Source: a virus
IMG/VR virus record: IMGVR_UViG_3300042914_001339
Coordinates: 1-26,257 of that record
Strand: one strand, 5' to 3'
DNA length: 26,257 nucleotides
Below, piece after piece: positions 2,510-17,789 of this stretch (positions are counted from its first letter, which is position 1; every line of letters starts with the position of its first letter). Position numbers and translations under genes: made by a program. The notes under the pieces were generated by a model. That model did not search any database. It saw only the letters and a list, made by a program, of their open reading frames with translations, and had not been told where the DNA came from.

Positions 2510-3037
2510 CTAATATAAATCTTTTATTTTATCCTTATACGTTTTTATTAAATTTTTTAATTCATCAATAGTCCATTTCTTTGTTTTGTATGCTCTTTCT
2601 CGTAGCATTATAAATTCGTCTTTTCCTATCTTCTTTTCAAGATTTATTCCATATTCGATTAAGTTACCAGATAAGAATGAGTTGCAATGCTCACATTGTA
2701 CCGAGCAATTAAATTCATCAAACCTTACATTTGAATGCCCACCCTGTGAATAGTAATGCCCACAATTTGCTTTCTTTGGCTTCTTTAAACAACTGATGCA
2801 TACTTCGTGTTTATCTCGTTCCCTGATGTATTTATTAAAGACTTGTTGAGTAAGTTTGAGATATTCTTGTAATGTCATTAAATCGTCTTTTCGTTGCTTC
2901 TGTCGCTTCTTCTCATCCTTTGATTTAGCTTCCTTCCAAAACACGGATAAACATTCATCCTTCGTGCAATACTTTTGAAATGATGTATATGGATGGAATT
3001 TATCTTGGCAGTTTTTACACTTCTTTGCTTTTATCAT
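2510..3037 (-). CDS. ninG: NinG/Rap-like recombination nuclease
   Basis: This 175-aa protein has the features of lambda NinG (Rap), a structure-specific nuclease acting on recombination intermediates such as D-loops and Holliday-type junctions. Residues 7-29 hold an N-terminal zinc-binding set (C7, C10, C24, C29). A lysine and arginine-rich helix (38-52) follows. Residues 80-119 contain a second cysteine set (C80, C83, C92) and an HNH-like core: CGHYYSQGGHSNVRF, then NCSVQCEHCN, with H94, H101, C111, C115 and C118. Lambda NinG is slightly longer (204 aa). It lies downstream of the ATPase in the same operon and would work with the ERF, exonuclease and SSB-like proteins encoded upstream. The start overlaps the previous stop by 4 nt. 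Confidence 0.87.
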   Translation of the reverse strand: MIKAKKCKNCQDKFHPYTSFQKYCTKDECLSVFWKEAKSKDEKKRQKQRKDDLMTLQEYLKLTQQVFNKYIRERDKHEVCISCLKKPKKANCGHYYSQGGHSNVRFDEFNCSVQCEHCNSFLSGNLIEYGINLEKKIGKDEFIMLRERAYKTKKWTIDELKNLIKTYKDKIKDLY

Positions 3038-4202: not shown

Positions 4203-4807
4203 TTGTTAGCATTCATTTGTTTCATTACATTTTCATATAATTGTTGGTCTAATGATTTGACTTGTGTTTGAATTTTGCTAATATATGGAATAGTATTTAA
4301 TAATGTAGATTTCCAATTTTTAATTTTTATATTCTTATTATTTCTTATTACACTCCAATCATTAACTAACCAACTTTCATATTTTAATTTTACTTCATTC
4401 GTGTTTATGTTAGGCTCTTTACTTAAAGCATATGCTAAAAACTCATCGATAGATGGTATATTAATATCTTTAACATTAACATTATCATTTACATTATCAG
4501 CTATTTTTGCTATAGTAGAAATGCGTTTGCTATCGTTTGCTATATTTTGCCATCGTTTGTTAGCACCTGCTTTACCTGCTTCACTACGTTTTTCTTTAGT
4601 TTCTTCAAACTTTACTAAATCACGTTTCAATTGTTGCTTGATTGGTGTAAATGCAAGATTAATAATTAAATCTTCAGTAATAGGATTTTCATCATTAACA
4701 TAACTAAATATGTGTTTAATTAATTCTCCTGCTTTTTCGTTTGGTAATTGGTCAAATAATGCTTTTTGGTCAGCATATAAGATAAACCCTTTTTTGTCTT
4801 TAGCCAT
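4199..4807 (-). CDS. DUF6291-like phage replication protein
   Basis: This 202-aa protein begins MAKDKKGFILYADQKALFDQ, then LPNEKAGELIKHIFSYVNDE, the signature I know as DUF6291, common in Bacteroidota phages beside a DnaB-like ATPase. The first 75 residues look like a winged-helix-type DNA-binding domain. A basic linker (KRSEAGKAGANKRW, about 73-86) resembles the linker of phage replication initiators. The C-terminal part (about 115-175) has the SIDEFLAYALSKE and KLKYESWLVNDW pattern seen in DnaD/replisome-organiser tails. It probably recognises the origin and recruits the downstream ATPase. Its start lies 10 nt after the U-tract of a structured RNA (4818-4910), so expression may depend on read-through. 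The role is inferred from family and position. Confidence 0.78.
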   Translation of the reverse strand: MAKDKKGFILYADQKALFDQLPNEKAGELIKHIFSYVNDENPITEDLIINLAFTPIKQQLKRDLVKFEETKEKRSEAGKAGANKRWQNIANDSKRISTIAKIADNVNDNVNVKDINIPSIDEFLAYALSKEPNINTNEVKLKYESWLVNDWSVIRNNKNIKIKNWKSTLLNTIPYISKIQTQVKSLDQQLYENVMKQMNANK

Positions 4808-4817
4808 AATATGTCAT

Positions 4818-4910
4818 AAAAAAAACCCCGTCAAATCCGTAGGCTCTCACTTCTACTTCATTGACAGGGTCAATAACATCTTTAAGTTACATATTGTGAG
4901 AGCGTAACCG
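4818..4910 (-). ncRNA. Structured RNA with complementary hairpin loops and U8 terminator
   Basis: Read on the minus strand from about 4910. The first hairpin has stem GTTAC/GTAAC (4904-4908 with 4886-4890) and a 13-nt loop starting GCTCTCAC (4896-4903). The second is a long hairpin: a 9-bp outer stem CCCTGTCAA/TTGACGGGG (4861-4869 with 4826-4834, one G-U), an inner GTAG/CTAC stem (4853-4856 with 4839-4842), and a 10-nt loop containing GTGAGAGC (4843-4850). The two loops are perfectly complementary over 8 nt. The outer stem is followed directly by eight U residues (4818-4825), an intrinsic terminator. A TATATTTG promoter element lies just upstream. It may be a self-contained small RNA, or a leader controlling the replication gene that starts 10 nt later. 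I do not recognise it as a known riboswitch or ribozyme. Confidence 0.72.
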
Positions 4911-4914
4911 TATA

Positions 4915-4922
4915 CAAATATA
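4915..4922 (-). promoter_or_regulatory. Bacteroidota -7 promoter element TATATTTG
   Basis: A perfect TAnnTTTG match on the minus strand, immediately after the stop of the 64-aa gene. A start site 5-7 nt downstream would fall at about 4908-4910, where the first hairpin of the structured RNA begins. No clear TTTG -33 element is present upstream, so strength is uncertain. Confidence 0.6.
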
Positions 4923-4927
4923 ACTAA

Positions 4928-5122
4928 TTATTCTGATTCTTGTTTTAAATACATACCTAATCGTTTTTCACAATTATCTATCCAGTCATCTAATAGCCAT
5001 ACATCGTATACATCTTCAGGATTTCTGTCGGACTTTTTAATAGCATCTTCTCTGCTATTTGCTTTGCCTATCCAATAGTTAGGTTGTCCGTGATTCCAAC
5101 AAAATACTTTATAATAGTTCAT
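4928..5122 (-). CDS. Hypothetical protein, 64 aa
   Basis: The protein starts MNYYKVFCWNHGQPNYWIGK, followed by ANSREDAIKKSDRNPEDVYD and a tryptophan-containing acidic end. The arrangement of a beta strand, a helix led by SREDAI and another strand resembles small alpha/beta phage proteins, but no family is recognised. The start overlaps the upstream stop (ATGA). It ends 6 nt before a promoter element for the structured RNA. Confidence 0.62.
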   Translation of the reverse strand: MNYYKVFCWNHGQPNYWIGKANSREDAIKKSDRNPEDVYDVWLLDDWIDNCEKRLGMYLKQESE

Positions 5123-5298
5123 TTCTTATCTTCTAAATCATAAATTTCTTTAATCAATCCTTTAAAAGTCCAAGTGCAATAAATATTGTCTTTAAATGTA
5201 TTACATACTACTTCATCTTTTACAGGTAAGTCTTTTCCTAATGCGATTTTTTCATATAAATATTTATACAATAAATCTCTTTCAAATTCTTTGCTCAT
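5119..5298 (-). CDS. Hypothetical protein, 59 aa
   Basis: The product begins MSKEFERDLLYKYLYEKIAL and ends WTFKGLIKEIYDLEDKK. It is mainly helical with two cysteines in the middle (VVCNTFKDNIYC). A longer in-frame start at 5343 would run through a terminator-like hairpin and a low-complexity stretch, so the ATG at 5298 is preferred. A copy of the dispersed motif lies directly upstream (AAACACGAATT then ATG). No function recognised. Confidence 0.62.
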   Translation of the reverse strand: MSKEFERDLLYKYLYEKIALGKDLPVKDEVVCNTFKDNIYCTWTFKGLIKEIYDLEDKK

Positions 5299-5313
5299 AA
5301 TTCGTGTTTTTGT

Positions 5314-5352
5314 AAAAAATAGGTTTTTTAGAAAATCCACCAAAGAAACCTA
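5314..5352 (-). terminator. Terminator-like hairpin with U6 tail
   Basis: On the minus strand TAGGTTT (5346-5352) pairs with AAACCTA (5320-5326) around a 19-nt loop and is followed by six U residues (5314-5319). The stem is short and A/U-rich and the loop is large, so termination is uncertain. It closes the GC-rich noncoding block that precedes it in the transcript. Confidence 0.4.
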
Positions 5353-5447
5353 CAAAACTTTGCCGACCAACGATTCGGTATCCGAGTGAGCAGTTCTAAC
5401 GGTATGCCCGACAGTGCTTCGTTCCCTTGTACTTTGGGCGTGTATTT
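5353..5447 (-). other. GC-rich noncoding block with repeated CGGTAT element
   Basis: About 95 nt between the SSB-like gene and the 59-aa gene, visibly richer in G+C than the surrounding A+T-rich DNA. On the plus strand CGGTATCCGA (from 5376) and CGGTATGCCCGA (from 5400) are imperfect direct repeats spaced 24 nt apart. Short inverted elements such as TCGG-ATA-CCGA are present on the minus strand. There is no ATG-started gene. It may be a structured RNA, a protein-binding array or part of a replication origin; nothing here decides between these. Confidence 0.4.
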
Positions 5448-5453
5448 TTTAAA

Positions 5454-5759
5454 TCAAAAAGGGAGGTCATCTTTAGTAGAATCAATAATCTTTTGTGATG
5501 AACTTTGAAGTGGTTTATCTTGCTTCTCTGCTACTTTTACCTCTCCATTGGTATAAACTACTTTTCCATTGCCTAAAAACGTCTTAGATGCCTTTATTTC
5601 ACGTTCTTCTTTTGACTGCTGAATAGTCAAAGCTACATTGTTTCCATAGTTATCTAAATTGTCATTGACTGAAATAGTCATATTTAGATACTTTCCTTTG
5701 ATTAGTTTAGACTTGTCTACTTTTGTCAAGTCAATACTTGCGTTAATTAGTGTTCCCAT
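5454..5759 (-). CDS. SSB-like single-stranded DNA-binding protein, 101 aa
   Basis: The protein starts MGTLINASIDLTKVDKSKLI, then KGKYLNMTISVNDNLDNYGN, a strand-rich pattern that would suit an OB-type fold. The last residues, STKDDLPF, form an acidic tip like the C-terminal DDDIPF peptide of bacterial SSB that recruits repair and replication enzymes. A flexible glutamine and serine-rich linker (about 78-93) precedes the tip. It is shorter than E. coli SSB (178 aa), and the domain itself is not a clear match to canonical SSB. It lies between the exonuclease and replication genes, which fits. I call it SSB-like on the tail and context. Confidence 0.68.
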   Translation of the reverse strand: MGTLINASIDLTKVDKSKLIKGKYLNMTISVNDNLDNYGNNVALTIQQSKEEREIKASKTFLGNGKVVYTNGEVKVAEKQDKPLQSSSQKIIDSTKDDLPF

Positions 5760-5768
5760 TTTACTCTA

Positions 5769-5966
5769 TTAATTGATTATTTTTTTATTTCTTCCTAATT
5801 TAATATAAAGATTGTTAAATCTTCTTATAGTGCATTTAAAGATTTTTAAAGGATTGTAATAGTTCCCTTGTGTTACTTTATACACTACTGTACTTGCATT
5901 TACTTCTAATAGTTCTACAATTTGGTCTGCTCGTGAGCAGTTGTAGTATCTTTCTCCTGTTTTCAT
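5769..5966 (-). CDS. Hypothetical protein, 65 aa
   Basis: The protein starts MKTGERYYNCSRADQIVELL and continues EVNASTVVYKVTQGNYYNPL, ending with a basic region (IRRFNNLYIKLGRNKK). The strand pattern suggests a small beta-barrel domain. The start overlaps the exonuclease stop by 4 nt, so it is probably translated from the same message. No family recognised. Confidence 0.65.
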   Translation of the reverse strand: MKTGERYYNCSRADQIVELLEVNASTVVYKVTQGNYYNPLKIFKCTIRRFNNLYIKLGRNKKIIN

Positions 5967-6643
5967 AAGTTTATTTTTTTAAGTGATTCGTAATATTCAT
6001 TCGCTTGTTCTACTTTTTCCTTTATCTTGTTTTCTGCTTCTTGGTTACCTTCAACAATAAATCTTTTAATTCTTAATGTATCAGGAATATGGTCATAGTT
6101 GTGTTGATTCTGAATGGCATCCCTAACATCTAAATTCTCATCAATTAGATTCAGTTTCCAATGTGTTCTTCTAATTTCATCTTCAACTATCTGTTGTGGT
6201 GTATTCATAAGACAATACACTAACTCTGCTTGTAAATGTCCTGTGAGCATCATATAACCTTGTAATTGCCAAAAGTAATCTTTATTTGGAAGTTCAGTAT
6301 CGAAGAAAGGAAATGTACTACCACTCCAACTGCATTTAATATCTGCAAGTAATGTCTCCGTGTTTATGTCGGGAATGCCTGTTATCCATTCATTCTTTAA
6401 ACGTTCTTCGTTTTTGTTTACACTTATATCCCACCCAAGAACATTACCTGCTAATTGTATGGCTTCATCTTCCATCTGAATACCTTTATCGGTATAACGT
6501 GATGAAATGTCTTTGTAGATTCCGTATTCTTTCTCACGAAATACATCTTCAATAAAAGTCTTTGCAGTTTCAGATAAGACCTCTCCCTTACTACGGGGAG
6601 AAGTCATAAGTTTACCTAAACCACTGCATCTAAATTGTATCAT
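5963..6643 (-). CDS. YqaJ-type recombination exonuclease
   Basis: A 226-aa protein of the PD-(D/E)xK nuclease superfamily, related to YqaJ/lambda exonuclease, which degrades one DNA strand from double-strand ends to give single strands for annealing. The N-terminus FRCSGLGKLMTSPR is the RxSxLxxLM motif of these viral recombinases. E58/E60 (QMEDEA) lie in the helix that usually carries a metal-binding glutamate. D92 (GIPD) and D101-x-K103 (LLADIKCSW) are the catalytic core. QLQGYM (126-131) is the conserved glutamine helix. Length fits the family. It is encoded together with ERF and the SSB-like protein, a standard two-component recombination system. Confidence 0.88.
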   Translation of the reverse strand: MIQFRCSGLGKLMTSPRSKGEVLSETAKTFIEDVFREKEYGIYKDISSRYTDKGIQMEDEAIQLAGNVLGWDISVNKNEERLKNEWITGIPDINTETLLADIKCSWSGSTFPFFDTELPNKDYFWQLQGYMMLTGHLQAELVYCLMNTPQQIVEDEIRRTHWKLNLIDENLDVRDAIQNQHNYDHIPDTLRIKRFIVEGNQEAENKIKEKVEQANEYYESLKKINL

Positions 6644-12238: not shown

Positions 12239-12739
12239 TTATAAGTACCACCCATAATTTATCGTATTAGTATTTGGAAACATATCTCCGTTGCTATTCT
12301 CGTAGTATTCAGGGAATGATGCCTGATTGAAACACATATAATCTTTGAATCTCGTTGTGTAGTGTTGTGCGATGCTTTGTTGTTTGTTTATTAAATAATC
12401 AACTTCTTCTTTGCTTACTGTTTCGCTTGTTTCACTTCCTCCCTTGTAAATACCTTTATTTGCTATCTGATAAGACGCAAAAGGTAAATATTCATAAAAA
12501 GCCCAATGTATAACCATAGGCTTAATATACTTTGTTAAAAGCGTTGTATATGGCTCTGATAAATCATCAGCAACAATATCATCGTTTATCTTCTCAAATA
12601 ATCGTGTACCCAAATACTCCTGTATATGTGTGTCTTGTGCTATCTTGACAAATTGAATGAACTTGTCAGGATCTACATTACCATTTAATGCAGTGAACTT
12701 TTTTATATCTTCGGTTGTTACAAATATTGCTTGTGCCAT
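12239..12739 (-). CDS. DUF6712-like head-tail connector protein
   Basis: A 166-aa, mostly helical protein starting MAQAIFVTTEDIKKFTALNG. The pattern with FIQFVKIAQDTHIQEYLGTR, then LFEKI and YIKPMVIHWAFYEYLPF is what I know as DUF6712, a head-completion or adaptor protein of Bacteroidota phages. It resembles gp6-type connectors that attach below the portal. Its ATG shares a base with the portal stop (TAATG), supporting that role. About 54 nt without a gene lie between it and the holin candidate. Confidence 0.74.
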   Translation of the reverse strand: MAQAIFVTTEDIKKFTALNGNVDPDKFIQFVKIAQDTHIQEYLGTRLFEKINDDIVADDLSEPYTTLLTKYIKPMVIHWAFYEYLPFASYQIANKGIYKGGSETSETVSKEEVDYLINKQQSIAQHYTTRFKDYMCFNQASFPEYYENSNGDMFPNTNTINYGWYL

Positions 12740-14490
12740 TATTTTCTATAATTAGGATGATGTCCATTATCAGGCATATCAAAAGGTGCGATTTTACTTT
12801 CAGCAGTTCCGTATGGTCGTGGTTTGTATGATTTCGGAATACTTGCTACTTCCTCTGATGAGCTTAATGCCTTATCCTCAACATAACCTTTTCCGTCTTT
12901 TTTAGTTTTTAGTTTGTAAAGCACTTCGTTCCAAAAATGTCCACAGTTGGGTCCGCCTTTAAAGCGAAACAAATCGTAATTTTGTCCTTTATGTCCGAAT
13001 TTTTTATTTACTCCTGCCCTACTTGCTTTATCAATATCTTCTAAACGATAAACTACACCATTAGCAGTTCTACTCATCATTTGTTTGCAGAAGTTTCGCG
13101 AACTTGATTTTGAATATCGTTCAGAGTATTCATAACGTACTTTGTAAACTGACTTGTCTAAATTTGAATCTCTACTCGGAAATGAAGTAATATAATCAGC
13201 CAATTTAGTAAGCATTGATTTTTTTGGTTCGTGTTCTGCTATCCATTCGTCAATACTTGAATTATCTTCTTTGTATTCACGTTTCGCTACTACTTCCCAC
13301 TCATCACTTAAACATTCGCCTGATAACTCATCCAAAAAAGCATCTGCATCCTCATCATTTATTTCTTCTTGACTGCTCATATTAACCTGTGTTTCTTCAG
13401 GATCTATAATTGTCAATCGTTCAAAGTATAAGTCAAGTGAAATTCCGTTAAAAGAAAGTATCTTATCAAGCCCATCAATTATCAATTCTTGGAATGGCTT
13501 AATAACTGTATTATAGAAATAAGCACTTGCTACTTTTATTTCATCAGCATTTGAACTGAATCCTTGCCCTCCTTGATTGATACCTACTAAAAAAGAACTT
13601 GTAATATTGTGTCCGTTTAATATCTTATCTCGTGCCTCTGTTGCTAACCAAGAATAGTGTTCAGGTGCATCAGTTAAGCTAATATCTTCAACAGTTGTCG
13701 CTAAATCACGGTTATTGTTAAATGATACTATTACTTTTTGCCCTGTGCTACCCGTTAACTTCTTCATCACTTTAGAAGTGATTTCTTGTTGTTGTTCCTC
13801 TGTTGGTACAAGTCCGTTAAAATTGATAACTTTAGTTCCTGAAAAACTATTTTTTATTTCGTTAATTAGATACAAAGCAATTTCTTCTTCTGCTACGCAA
13901 TAGTCTAATGCACCCAAATAATCAACAAATGAAAAATACTTTTGACCTACTGAATAATTACCTAAAACAAGGATTTCAATACTCTCATTTGAAGTACCCA
14001 TTGCAGGTATTCTTGTAGGTACATACTTGCGTACATCCTCCCAATTATCAGAATAGTAGTAAGCGTTTATTTTACCTTTCTCATCGCACTTTTCGGGTCT
14101 AATTAAGTTGATAGGTAAATGCTCAACTCTCGCTATCTTTTTTCTGTCTTTGCTATATATTACTTGAAATACACAATTACCTAACATCTTCAAGTCCATA
14201 ATCACGGAACGAAGCATATCCTTCCCAAATAACATCTTCATTTGTGCGTATTCGTTAGGTTTACGAGCAGCATCTTTAGCGTTTAACCCATTACCATAGA
14301 TAAGTCTTGAAATGTTGTTTATACAAGCGTTATTTGTAGTAGAATTTTGGTAGCAGTCAATTAAGAAATCGTAGTAATCATTCTTATCTCCGTATTCTAC
14401 CCATTCGTTGCGTTTGCTTTCAACTATCTTCGGTTGTGTGTATTGGCTTAAATTGATAACGTGAATATCATTCATATATAATAAATTCAT
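12739..14490 (-). CDS. Phage portal protein with extra C-terminal domain
   Basis: A 583-aa protein. Residues about 1-370 form a portal core: YQNSTTNNACINNISRLIYG near the start, GNCVFQVIYSKDRKKIARVE, and EARDKILNGHNITSSFLVGI with an FSSNADEIKVAS helix typical of SPP1/HK97-type portals. A portal makes the 12-subunit ring through which DNA enters the capsid. Acidic and low-complexity linker at 370-425. Residues 448-530 (VYKVRYEYSERYS, SSRNFCKQMMSR, VVYRLEDI, GGPNCGHFWNE) form a second domain that I associate with the C-terminus of XkdF-type protease proteins; in this phage the protease is separate and lacks it. The internal ATG at 14475 is an equally likely start because it shortens the overlap with the upstream gene to 8 nt. 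Confidence 0.82.
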   Translation of the reverse strand: MNLLYMNDIHVINLSQYTQPKIVESKRNEWVEYGDKNDYYDFLIDCYQNSTTNNACINNISRLIYGNGLNAKDAARKPNEYAQMKMLFGKDMLRSVIMDLKMLGNCVFQVIYSKDRKKIARVEHLPINLIRPEKCDEKGKINAYYYSDNWEDVRKYVPTRIPAMGTSNESIEILVLGNYSVGQKYFSFVDYLGALDYCVAEEEIALYLINEIKNSFSGTKVINFNGLVPTEEQQQEITSKVMKKLTGSTGQKVIVSFNNNRDLATTVEDISLTDAPEHYSWLATEARDKILNGHNITSSFLVGINQGGQGFSSNADEIKVASAYFYNTVIKPFQELIIDGLDKILSFNGISLDLYFERLTIIDPEETQVNMSSQEEINDEDADAFLDELSGECLSDEWEVVAKREYKEDNSSIDEWIAEHEPKKSMLTKLADYITSFPSRDSNLDKSVYKVRYEYSERYSKSSSRNFCKQMMSRTANGVVYRLEDIDKASRAGVNKKFGHKGQNYDLFRFKGGPNCGHFWNEVLYKLKTKKDGKGYVEDKALSSSEEVASIPKSYKPRPYGTAESKIAPFDMPDNGHHPNYRK

Positions 14491-15506: not shown

Positions 15507-16442
15507 TTAGTCTACTGCTGTAGTTGACAAATACCATACGATTTCAGAACCGAATGCATACTCAACACCACCTGTATATACCATGTTGAAACGAACCATA
15601 CCTGTCATATCATACTCATCCATGTTTTTGATACGGATTTCATTATGGTCAGCTAATAGACCTGTACCAAATGCAAGATTTTTCTTATCGTATGCTACAA
15701 ATGTATTATCAGGCAAAGTATCAATAACTTCAAGTGTATAACGACCAAATTTCATCATTTTATCATCACCACCTAAACCATTATTGATTCCTTGCGTTAC
15801 CAATAAGTTATTATAAGCAGTAGCCCAATTTTCAGAGATACCGATTACTAAACCTGCTGATTTACGAACTGCTAATGGAATAGCTGCGATTGCTTTTTTA
15901 GTTTCAGCAAGTACATTGTCCTCATCAATTGCTTCTGCTGCTGGTACAATACCGTTATTTGCTTTAATTACATCTCCATCAGCTTCGAACTTAGGTATAA
16001 ATCCTTCAAAATGTCCAGAAGTATCACCATTACCATTCCAAATGTCCTCATCAACTCCCACTGCTGTATCTCCTAATACTTGAGAAATTAATGCTGTTTC
16101 AACATCTGCTGGCATTTCGTCATTATGAGCAGAAAATCCCATAGATGCACTTGACCAAATTTGTCTTAAATCCTCTTTACAAATTTCCAAAGGAACTTGG
16201 ATTTTTTTAGGTGTTAACAATTTTTCATTTAATGTAATTGCACTTGATGGATTCCAACCACACGCATAGTCTTTACGACCATCCGCATATTCAATTTTTC
16301 TTAATGAAATTTGAAAATCAATATCAGGTAATACCGTGATAAGACCTCTTGAAATAGTCGTTGCTTCTTTGAATGCTTTTCCGATTATTTCTCCTGCAAC
16401 CTGCCCCGCATAGTTGCTACTTACTGTTAAATCTGTTGCCAT
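15507..16442 (-). CDS. Major capsid protein
   Basis: A 311-aa protein starting MATDLTVSSNYAGQVAGEII, with TISRGLITVLPDIDFQISLR, KIQVPLEICKEDLRQIW and DEDIWNGNGDTSGHFEGFIP. The GNG-(x)n-GFIP stretch is typical of the E-loop to P-domain region of HK97-fold major capsid proteins in Bacteroidota phages. RKSAGLVIGISENWATAYNN, DTLPDNTFVAYDKKNLAFGT and the final YTGGVEYAFGSEIVWYLS fit the A-domain and last strand. It follows the protease and scaffold-like genes and is followed by a strong terminator. The leader ends in AAATAAATAACAA. Assignment is supported by context and family look. Confidence 0.84.
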   Translation of the reverse strand: MATDLTVSSNYAGQVAGEIIGKAFKEATTISRGLITVLPDIDFQISLRKIEYADGRKDYACGWNPSSAITLNEKLLTPKKIQVPLEICKEDLRQIWSSASMGFSAHNDEMPADVETALISQVLGDTAVGVDEDIWNGNGDTSGHFEGFIPKFEADGDVIKANNGIVPAAEAIDEDNVLAETKKAIAAIPLAVRKSAGLVIGISENWATAYNNLLVTQGINNGLGGDDKMMKFGRYTLEVIDTLPDNTFVAYDKKNLAFGTGLLADHNEIRIKNMDEYDMTGMVRFNMVYTGGVEYAFGSEIVWYLSTTAVD

Positions 16443-16445
16443 TTG

Positions 16446-17039
16446 TTATTTATTTAATTTAGCGTTTAAAAATTCGTTTATATTTCCTTTTTTGTTAAAT
16501 AAGCTACTTGTATTTTTGCTTAATTTAGTTTCAGGATTGAATACAATTGGATCAGCTGCAGCTTCATTTTTTTCTGCATTTTCAACCTCTTGTGCTTTCA
16601 ATTCAGTTAATTTTTGTAGTTCTTCTTTAAGTTTTGTATTTTCTGCCATCAATGATTCGATTTCAGCGAAATATAATTCTTTAGAAATTGTTTCAACTAC
16701 TTTTTTAGGTTGTGCTTCTTCTTCCATTTGAACTTGTGATTCTTCTGTTTCAGAAACTATCGGAGCATTGTCATTTGTTGTTTCTTCAGTTTGAGCATCT
16801 TTAATTTCTTTAATTACTCCTTCTTGCTCAACTACTAAAACTCGCCCATCTTCCAAAATGTGTTCTCCTACAGGTGCAGGTACAATTCCCTCTGGTGTAA
16901 CTATTCCAACTGAATAACCTGCTTCAAAACTTTCTGCTTCGATTACAGTTACTCCGTCTTGTAGTTTCATTTGAGCAAGTTTTACCTCCAATCCAAGAAG
17001 TGTTTTCACTTCATTCAAGACTTTTGTTGCTTTGTTCAT
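16446..17039 (-). CDS. Scaffold-like head assembly protein
   Basis: This 197-aa protein has two parts. Residues 28-80 form a beta-rich domain: GVTVIEAESFEAGYSVGIVT, then PEGIVPAPVGEHILEDGRVL and VVEQEGVIKEI, a repeat-like hairpin pattern. Residues 85-120 are acidic. Residues 118-160 form a coiled coil (ELYFAEIESLMAENTKLKEE). The last 30 residues are basic (NKKGNINEFLNAKLNK). This looks like a scaffold with a capsid-interacting tail, encoded just before the capsid gene as usual. The protease one gene upstream would remove it. An additional role as a decoration protein is possible. Confidence 0.72.
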   Translation of the reverse strand: MNKATKVLNEVKTLLGLEVKLAQMKLQDGVTVIEAESFEAGYSVGIVTPEGIVPAPVGEHILEDGRVLVVEQEGVIKEIKDAQTEETTNDNAPIVSETEESQVQMEEEAQPKKVVETISKELYFAEIESLMAENTKLKEELQKLTELKAQEVENAEKNEAAADPIVFNPETKLSKNTSSLFNKKGNINEFLNAKLNK

Positions 17040-17067: not shown

Positions 17068-17220
17068 TTATAATTGTCTTGTTTCATTTTCGTTTATAAT
17101 CACATCTTGGTCAGCAGTTACCAAACTACCTAATCCTTGACCTTTAGACTGCTCTAAATAGTCCTCTAATTGTGGCTTAAGTACTTCTCCCGTACCTGCC
17201 AAGTTTACTTTTTTAGCCAT
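17068..17220 (-). CDS. Small head-region protein, 50 aa
   Basis: A frame from the ATG at 17220 codes for MAKKVNLAGTGEVLKPQLED, then YLEQSKGQGLGSLVTADQDV and a short polar end. It shares one base with the protease stop (TAATG) and ends 28 nt before the scaffold-like gene, so it fits the operon. It is soluble with a basic start and glycine-rich middle. No family recognised; position suggests a head assembly helper. Confidence 0.65.
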   Translation of the reverse strand: MAKKVNLAGTGEVLKPQLEDYLEQSKGQGLGSLVTADQDVIINENETRQL

Positions 17221-17789
17221 TATATTTGTTTTAATATTTCCTTTATTTGTTCAAGTAGTTCTTCGTCTTTTGATAATCCTAACTTTTCAAGACCTGAAAA
17301 CATTGCTTCGATTGAATATCCTTTGTAAGTTCCGTCTTTTACTTGTTGCCATACTTGCTCATTATCAATCTTACTCATTACTACCCACTCTCCACCTTTA
17401 GGATTTAAATTGTATAAGTTTGATTTGTCGTTATTAGCATCTTCTACTATCCAACTTTCAATTACACTTACTCCATCCGTGTTTTTCTCGTGTTCTAAAG
17501 TGAAATTTTGTAGGTTAAGTTGTTTCATATACAACTCTTGAGCCTCTCTAATTGTATCAGCAGAGAAATAAATATTGAATTCTTTGCCTTTTAAAACACG
17601 ATAGATACGTTTGTCAGGAACTAATGCAAATCCAACTACTATTCTTCTTTCAGAATCAATAACTTTTAGTTCTACTTTTTCAGAAGATAATGCTATAAAA
17701 TCTTCTTCGATTGCAGGATTCTCTACTAATGAAATAGCGAAAACACCATCTTTCGCATCTTCTATTGTTAATTCTACTTCTTGTAACAT
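17220..17789 (-). CDS. XkdF-like prohead protease
   Basis: The 189-aa protein begins MLQEVELTIEDAKDGVFAIS and has SLVENPAIEEDFIALS (20-35), the conserved opening of XkdF-type putative serine proteases. VVGFALVPDKRIYR follows. H100 (FTLEHEKNTDG), ESWIVED (111-117) and GYSIEA with S159 are the likely catalytic and core positions of the herpesvirus-protease-like fold. Such enzymes mature the prohead by removing scaffold. Order protease, small gene, scaffold, capsid is standard. It stops soon after the protease domain, whereas relatives I recall carry an additional C-terminal domain, which here is at the end of the portal. Confidence 0.8.
   Translation of the reverse strand: MLQEVELTIEDAKDGVFAISLVENPAIEEDFIALSSEKVELKVIDSERRIVVGFALVPDKRIYRVLKGKEFNIYFSADTIREAQELYMKQLNLQNFTLEHEKNTDGVSVIESWIVEDANNDKSNLYNLNPKGGEWVVMSKIDNEQVWQQVKDGTYKGYSIEAMFSGLEKLGLSKDEELLEQIKEILKQI

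Follow-up and report, generated by a model that had tools for sequence, protein, structure and literature searches.

Minor head proteins of the MuF type, among them F (gp30) of phage Mu and gp7 of SPP1, are encoded by genes that, according to one account, normally adjoin the portal gene and lie directly downstream of it (PMC5576092). SPP1 gp7 is described as bound to the portal and sent to the procapsid interior, with only about 25% of virions being infectious without it (PMC6316719). MuF proteins have also been reported to carry effector domains (PMC5512222, PMC5576092), and the role of the MuF protein is described as poorly known by Jamet et al. In one description of Microbacterium phages, MuF is fused to the portal in clusters EA3, EA5, EA8 and EB and to the maturation protease in cluster EG (PMC7302621).

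Here we analyse a viral stretch of 26,257 nucleotides (IMG/VR record IMGVR_UViG_3300042914_001339, positions 1 to 26,257; hereafter the window) whose portal protein ends in a module with conserved cysteine and histidine residues. The module resembles MuF minor head proteins in their C-terminal Cys/His part and in its setting among head genes, and a form encoded by a separate gene right after the portal also exists (locus L520). Unlike those proteins, it comprises the C-terminal 60 to 90 residues or so, with no helical part, has a Cys/Cys/His set where canonical MuF mostly has His/Cys/Cys, is fused to the portal or to XkdF, and gives no significant direct profile match. The Microbacterium fusions, as they are described (PMC7302621), likewise link a MuF-type domain with either the portal or the maturation protease, whereas in the phages studied here the protease is XkdF (PF14550) and carries the domain in front of its core; those fusions are known from actinobacteriophages with MuF-like genes, and we liken them to ours by description, not by sequence. 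Fusions of MuF to the portal and to the protease are thus already known, and what is new here is the apparent relation of this module to MuF and a pattern in which it is borne by one carrier at a time. In the literature that we searched, we found no paper that treats both XkdF and MuF and no description of the module.

Results

The window holds an uninterrupted 583-residue portal frame on the minus strand only (Table 1). Residues 10-531 of its product align to positions 2-514 of the 560-position profile of PHROG 33693, so that the C-terminal region is included, and the C-terminal piece alone also matches this family, at profile positions 422-514. In Nonlabens phages P12024S and P12024L, which belong to this family, the portal is of the same kind and likewise ends in the module (31% identity, covering 98% of the portal); we see no essential difference between this family, which is annotated as portal only, and the window portal. 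We label the portal core as HK97-type because a related homologue that lacks the module matches PF04860, at an E-value of 2.3e-9 that lies just under the cut-off.

Table 1. Positions of the features discussed in the text. Rows that name a locus (L) give positions in that locus; all others refer to the window.
Feature	Position	Strand	Basis or remark
Portal protein gene, 583 aa	12739..14490	-	PHROG 33693, E 4.5e-86
Portal core, residues ~1-370	13381..14490	-	HK97-type through a module-less homologue
Acidic pre-module segment, residues ~370-440	13171..13383	-	GE...DEWE motif at 391-399
Module (MuF-like Cys/His domain), residues ~441-533	12892..13170	-	
Cys468 codon	13087..13089	-	First of the invariant Cys/Cys/His set
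Cys516 codon	12943..12945	-	C-x-H
His518 codon	12937..12939	-	C-x-H
Post-module tail, residues 534-583	12742..12891	-	Ends in MPDNGHHPNYRK
XkdF-type head protease (Peptidase_S78_2), 189 aa, without module	17220..17789	-	PF14550, E 1.9e-16
Probable scaffold	16446..17039	-	Matches C-terminal part (205-346) of PHROG 24921; role inferred
Probable major capsid protein	15507..16442	-	PHROG 11320 (function unnamed there); role inferred from gene order
DUF6712 protein, next gene after portal	12239..12739	-	E 1.4e-25
Second-module portals	L141 10902-12275; L144 4086-5510; L145 3599-5023		
Second-module XkdF	L159 1699-3336; L126 5932-7584		
Third module	L145 5-964; L142 109-1491; and others		

The N-terminal part of PHROG 24921 matches the window protease, so that the protease and the probable scaffold, two genes here, correspond to opposite ends of one family; the two parts are joined in a single ORF in loci L255 and L261. 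Elsewhere in the window, the minus strand encodes a 175-residue protein rich in paired cysteines (2510-3037), which we take to resemble a NinG-type recombination protein.

A sequence-only reading of this DNA had proposed a distinct C-terminal module at about residues 448-530 of the portal. Our analysis places its boundaries close by, at residues 441-533, and the four peptides by which it was recognised are all present, namely VYKVRYEY (448-455), FCKQMM (467-472), VYRLEDI (480-486) and GGPNCGHFW (512-520). Within the window, a profile of the module matches the portal alone (E 3e-47); the head protease, correctly described in that reading as short and lacking the module, gives no match. An alignment of 20 dissimilar modules contains 16 invariant columns. 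Among distinct portal modules, Cys468 and Cys516 are each present in 239 of 239 and His518 in 238 of 239, the exception being a gap, and the same three positions in the XkdF modules described below are conserved in 55 of 56 (one gap), 56 of 56 and 56 of 56, respectively. An AlphaFold2 model of portal residues 430-583, made with 80 relatives, has a mean pLDDT of 88.1 and a pTM of 0.83 and predicts a strand, two helices and a long second strand for the module. The module is a real and discrete domain, far beyond what would be expected by chance. In the portal, its companions are the conserved acidic segment before it (residues 370-440 or so) and the tail behind it (residues 534-583).

A sequence search found no solved structure like the module. 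The Foldseek comparison of residues 430-583, which had been proposed as a check, fared differently on two databases: against solved structures it returned 30 weak rows, with a best E-value of 1.3, and against the predicted structures of BFVD it returned eight matches at E <= 1e-3, of which four are named XkdF, one is a portal and three are unnamed, with a fifth XkdF at E 8.8e-3. VIA-align of the module model placed 0 of 162 chains at Z >= 2. No Pfam model, including those of Phage_Mu_F (PF04233) and Phage_min_cap2 (PF06152), reaches its cut-off on the portal, on its C-terminus or on the 20 modules.

We kept 80 portal relatives from a search of viral contigs, and those that are not cut by a contig end reach the end of the module; in L018 and L019 the local match stops at window residue 528, yet the module is present. 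Across all fetched loci, the module is found on 214 of 244 distinct complete portals, a sample biased towards the module because most searches used the module or a module-bearing portal. In a less biased set, fetched with the window's protease, it is found on 24 of 29 distinct complete portals, and the portal family PHROG 33693 takes it in. To end in the module is the usual state of the window portal's family. Since portals of this type normally end with it, the architecture seen in the window is ordinary, a finding that the sequence-only reading had itself named as one that would refute its proposal. In a census of cellular genomes that covered 397 from the family of genome G001 and a sample of 395 from its phylum, the module was present in 2 and 5, respectively; four of these five were weak hits, through which the MuF-like family described below was reached. 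PF14550 was present in 3 of 299.

The suggestion that the module occurs in XkdF-type proteins proved sound, as the BFVD matches indicate and as do 80 module-bearing XkdF ORFs in the fetched loci (a count that is not de-duplicated). The position suggested for it, at the XkdF C-terminus, did not: the module precedes the protease core in all 80, ends before the end of the core and is C-terminal in none. A genome scan brought to light the XkdF of a Paenimyroides baculatum prophage (L255), and later scans many more. In the L255 protein the module lies at about residues 95-174 and PF14550 matches residues 217-335, elsewhere in the protein, and for this reason we rejected the idea that the module belongs to the protease domain of XkdF. 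Among distinct complete XkdF proteins, 48 of 189 carry the module in a sample that is again module-biased, and 0 of the 134 XkdF ORFs of loci L001-L241, close relatives of the window XkdF, do so. A module-bearing XkdF thus shares with the window portal the module itself and sometimes portal-type flanks, and differs from it in that the module stands before a protease core and the portal of the same phage ends without one. As to the flanks, a profile derived from the acidic segment of portals matches before the XkdF module in L508, L511, L512 and L516 (E 3e-12 to 2e-9) and more weakly in L503 and L509, and in some XkdF proteins, L255 for one, the module is followed by a tail that by eye is like the tails of other portals. 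Given these portal-type flanks, we take the module and its flanks to have moved together.

The relation to MuF emerges through an intermediate family. The module profile touched four proteins in genomes of the Bacteroidota sample at E-values of 0.003-0.007, all with the C-terminal pattern R-x-FC ... DNG ... GG-x-x-C-x-H. A further such protein, in L281, was found with the Phage_Mu_F model (E 9.9e-5), and the family, which we call MuF-like, was enlarged to 36 members from viral contigs. At E <= 0.1, 17 of the 36 match Phage_Mu_F (best E 5.5e-5) and 7 match Phage_min_cap2. When 32 members were compared with PHROGs, the only matches were to head or unnamed families: four to head maturation protease, three to portal, two to minor head protein, one to head morphogenesis and one to an unnamed family.

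We then have two profile-profile comparisons, one on either side of this family. The first, which sets 81 module rows against 35 stand-alone MuF-like domains, has Prob 98.3 and E 2e-14; its score is 80.6, whereas 100 column shuffles reached 20.7 at most. The second, between the MuF-like family and 14 canonical MuF proteins, gives Prob 95.7 and E 8.6e-9 over 109 columns, with a score of 55.6 as against a shuffle maximum of 25.7. Moreover, a profile built from the 36 MuF-like proteins alone and run on the 10,960 ORFs of the module-phage loci yields 208 hits at E <= 1e-3, every one of them a module ORF, and the first four members alone find the window portal at E 4.6e-5. Direct profile comparison of the module with canonical MuF, on the other hand, is not significant (Prob 0.2, E 0.26).

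Only about 60 columns of the module align, and they correspond to the C-terminal part of MuF. The helical part that precedes the Cys/His part of MuF is absent from the portal in the alignment and in the model, which is predicted to open with coil and a strand where the MuF-like protein has long helices. Beyond this point, the order of strands and helices and the Cys and His positions agree between the module and the MuF-like protein. The ligand positions (NCRC, R..H) are occupied by C/C/H in the module and by C/C/H in the MuF-like family (35 of 35 at each); in canonical MuF (n = 14) they are occupied by H (11) or C (3), then C (14), then C (11). Since Cys and His exchange at fixed places across families, a metal site fits, and the Cys/Cys/His trio probably binds a metal that holds the fold. 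The MuF-like model matches predicted viral proteins named "Phage head morphogenesis domain" and "Minor capsid protein". Its best rows among solved structures are helical bundles at residues 91-182 (Z <= 10.5) with no head protein, in a comparison that barely covered the C-terminal domain. Because no solved structure resembles the module model, the fold link reaches predicted structures only.

One might instead regard the module as a crown extension of the portal peculiar to this phage group, with its MuF resemblance being a short Cys/His-rich motif that arose independently. The failure of the direct comparison, the silence of Pfam, the small number of aligned columns and the lack of a PDB match are what one would expect in that case. 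However, the MuF-like profile picks out 208 module ORFs and nothing else among 10,960, the best of 100 shuffles reaches only about a quarter of the profile-profile score, the strand/helix order and Cys/His positions agree, and a mere crown extension would not be expected inside XkdF or in a gene of its own, where the module is also found. We consider an independent origin unlikely. Judged by profile comparison, the module is homologous, through the intermediate family, to the C-terminal Cys/His part of MuF-type proteins. We use this wording, and do not call it a MuF protein, because the direct comparison is negative and Pfam is blind to the relation.

Gene order gives the intermediate family itself little support, because a portal is recognised in only one of the seven genes that precede seven MuF-like genes; another of the seven is a DNA repair exonuclease, and Pfam names a portal in none. 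In Methanobacterium phage psiM2, the portal gene is followed by that of a small protein with some similarity to MuF and then by that of XkdF. The small protein, ORF11 (L524, 3056-3706), has an FCRC motif and matches canonical MuF weakly, at E 1.3e-4 in a search of three proteins; it is probably the MuF of psiM2.

We next consider how the module is distributed between its carriers. For this count we used 119 non-redundant loci, each of which has a single complete portal and a single complete XkdF, leaving out loci with an ORF that touches a contig end, portals of 330 residues or fewer, XkdF proteins of 150 residues or fewer and identical pairs; near-identical pairs remain. The portal alone carries the module in 94 loci, XkdF alone in 20, neither in 5 and both in 0. 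The "neither" class is under-sampled, since the loci were mostly obtained by searching with the module, a portal or an XkdF. No fetched locus has two module ORFs. In L520, one of the five loci with neither, and in its near twin L519, the module is encoded right after the portal as a separate gene; the ORF in L520 is 203 residues long, overlaps the end of a module-less portal and matches PHROG 33693 at 391-513. The records of the other four of these five (L141, L142, L145 and L159), which are fragments of 5 to 20 kb, have no module anywhere at E <= 10.

On an unrooted tree of the portal core, phages with a portal-borne module occupy most branches; those with an XkdF-borne module are nested among them in two places, and holding the latter together as a single clade is rejected (p-AU 0.005). 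This tree has 58 rows; it omits L371, L228, L417 and L384 for their long branches, L245 for a stop before the module, and near-copies, and L497, whose XkdF is cut by a contig end, was not scored as "none". A single XkdF-borne clade is not rejected on the tree of the module (p 0.19) or on that of the XkdF core (p 0.24). Given the split on the first tree and the tolerance of the other two, either two separate relocations or one relocation plus an exchange of the protease gene would explain the data. From its spread on the portal-core tree, the portal-borne state appears to be the older one, although that tree is unrooted.

The proposal that the module has moved between head proteins therefore stands as far as a change of carrier is concerned: this is supported by the two forms never coexisting in the 119 pairs and by the two places of the XkdF-borne phages on the portal tree. 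The direction that the sequence-only reading implied, from protease to portal, is not supported by the data. A module native to XkdF would be in keeping with the 48 of 189 XkdF proteins that bear it in the module-biased sample and with the XkdF names of the BFVD matches. Against such an origin, the XkdF-borne rows form two groups nested within a mostly portal-borne tree, so that portal-to-protease moves or two captures of a MuF gene need fewer steps, and the XkdF inserts of L508, L511, L512 and L516 bring a portal-type acidic segment with them; we regard it as decidedly improbable. Overall, that reading is supported as to XkdF and a change of carrier, is not supported as to the position within XkdF and the implied direction, and did not see the relation to MuF.

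In L245, whose contig is recorded as part of a Pseudooceanicola MAG, one in-frame stop immediately ahead of the module region interrupts the portal frame (4555-5736 and 5740-6405). The stop may be a sequencing error, or it may mark a pseudogene or a portal split in two.

Other small modules also occur in these proteins (Table 1). A second one, GC..YH.H....WYMPC..H, which Pfam recognises as DUF3721 in L159 (E 6.6e-8), occurs in both carriers; a rough motif places it in 19 of the 313 distinct ORFs for portals and in 27 of the 222 for XkdF. A third, RMASFKRH...GCGG.MWDAWGG, is common in XkdF, with 83 of the same 222 ORFs, and almost missing from portals, with 1 of the 313, again by a rough motif. 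DUF5824 is found at the XkdF C-terminus in L142 and L159.

Discussion

We propose that the module at the end of the window portal is a fused homologue of the C-terminal Cys/His part of MuF-type proteins, with a job in the procapsid at or near the portal vertex, and we put the probability of this reading at about 0.65. The same domain is found on the portal, inside XkdF ahead of the catalytic core or as a separate gene, and in no case do portal and protease both carry it. Portals have their C-terminal end turned towards the interior of the head, and the portal is probably present in twelve copies. A MuF gene lying beside the portal gene could fuse with it, fusion to the protease being the other known kind, and fusion to the lumen-facing C-terminus would set the module at the inner face, in a fixed number, by covalent linkage. 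A module borne by XkdF would enter the procapsid with this internal protease, and one encoded separately would rely on binding to the portal, as gp7 of SPP1 does. By analogy with gp7, the module may help to organise portal-proximal DNA or the early delivery of the genome.

A different function can be imagined, namely that the module is an enzyme or an injected effector whose Cys and His residues are catalytic, the fusion being a route for its packaging. MuF proteins are known carriers of effector domains (PMC5512222, PMC5576092), and in L267 (985-1971) a MuF-like domain is followed by a CdiA_C toxin domain (E 2.9e-7), which is the known MuF-toxin layout. In the MuF carriers that these accounts describe, though, the effector is a further domain and not part of MuF, and in the window portal only a 50-residue tail follows the module. 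The conserved residues also share a ligand type, and Cys and His replace each other between families, a pattern more in keeping with a metal site than with a catalytic one. We therefore judge an enzyme or effector highly improbable.

With the module read as a MuF-type domain acting in the procapsid, its distribution may carry a meaning of its own. We suggest, tentatively and at short of even odds, that the MuF-derived domain is a carrier-independent part of which each head takes one dose, whichever protein brings it in, and that it has moved more than once among portal, protease and a gene of its own, always leaving a single carrier. The one-carrier pattern could also be without functional meaning, in which case a few ancient rearrangements were inherited and the absence of loci with both forms reflects shared ancestry. 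There are only two XkdF-borne groups and one separate-gene phage on the portal tree, a single XkdF-borne clade is tolerated by the module and XkdF-core trees, and the four module-less records indicate that the module may be dispensable. Yet these four are short fragments, and each gain elsewhere is paired with absence from the portal, in two portal lineages that do not form one clade and again in the separate-gene phage; we find an explanation by shared ancestry alone somewhat unlikely.

The relation proposed here gives a putative identity to the C-terminal part of the PHROG 33693 portals and to the N-terminal insert of XkdF, neither of which is matched by Pfam. If each head does take one dose, the differences between carriers would amount to a natural experiment that separates the action of MuF from its entry into the head. 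With the domain being fused to the portal, borne by the protease or free, and with one carrier in each case, the role of MuF would become testable by carrier swaps.
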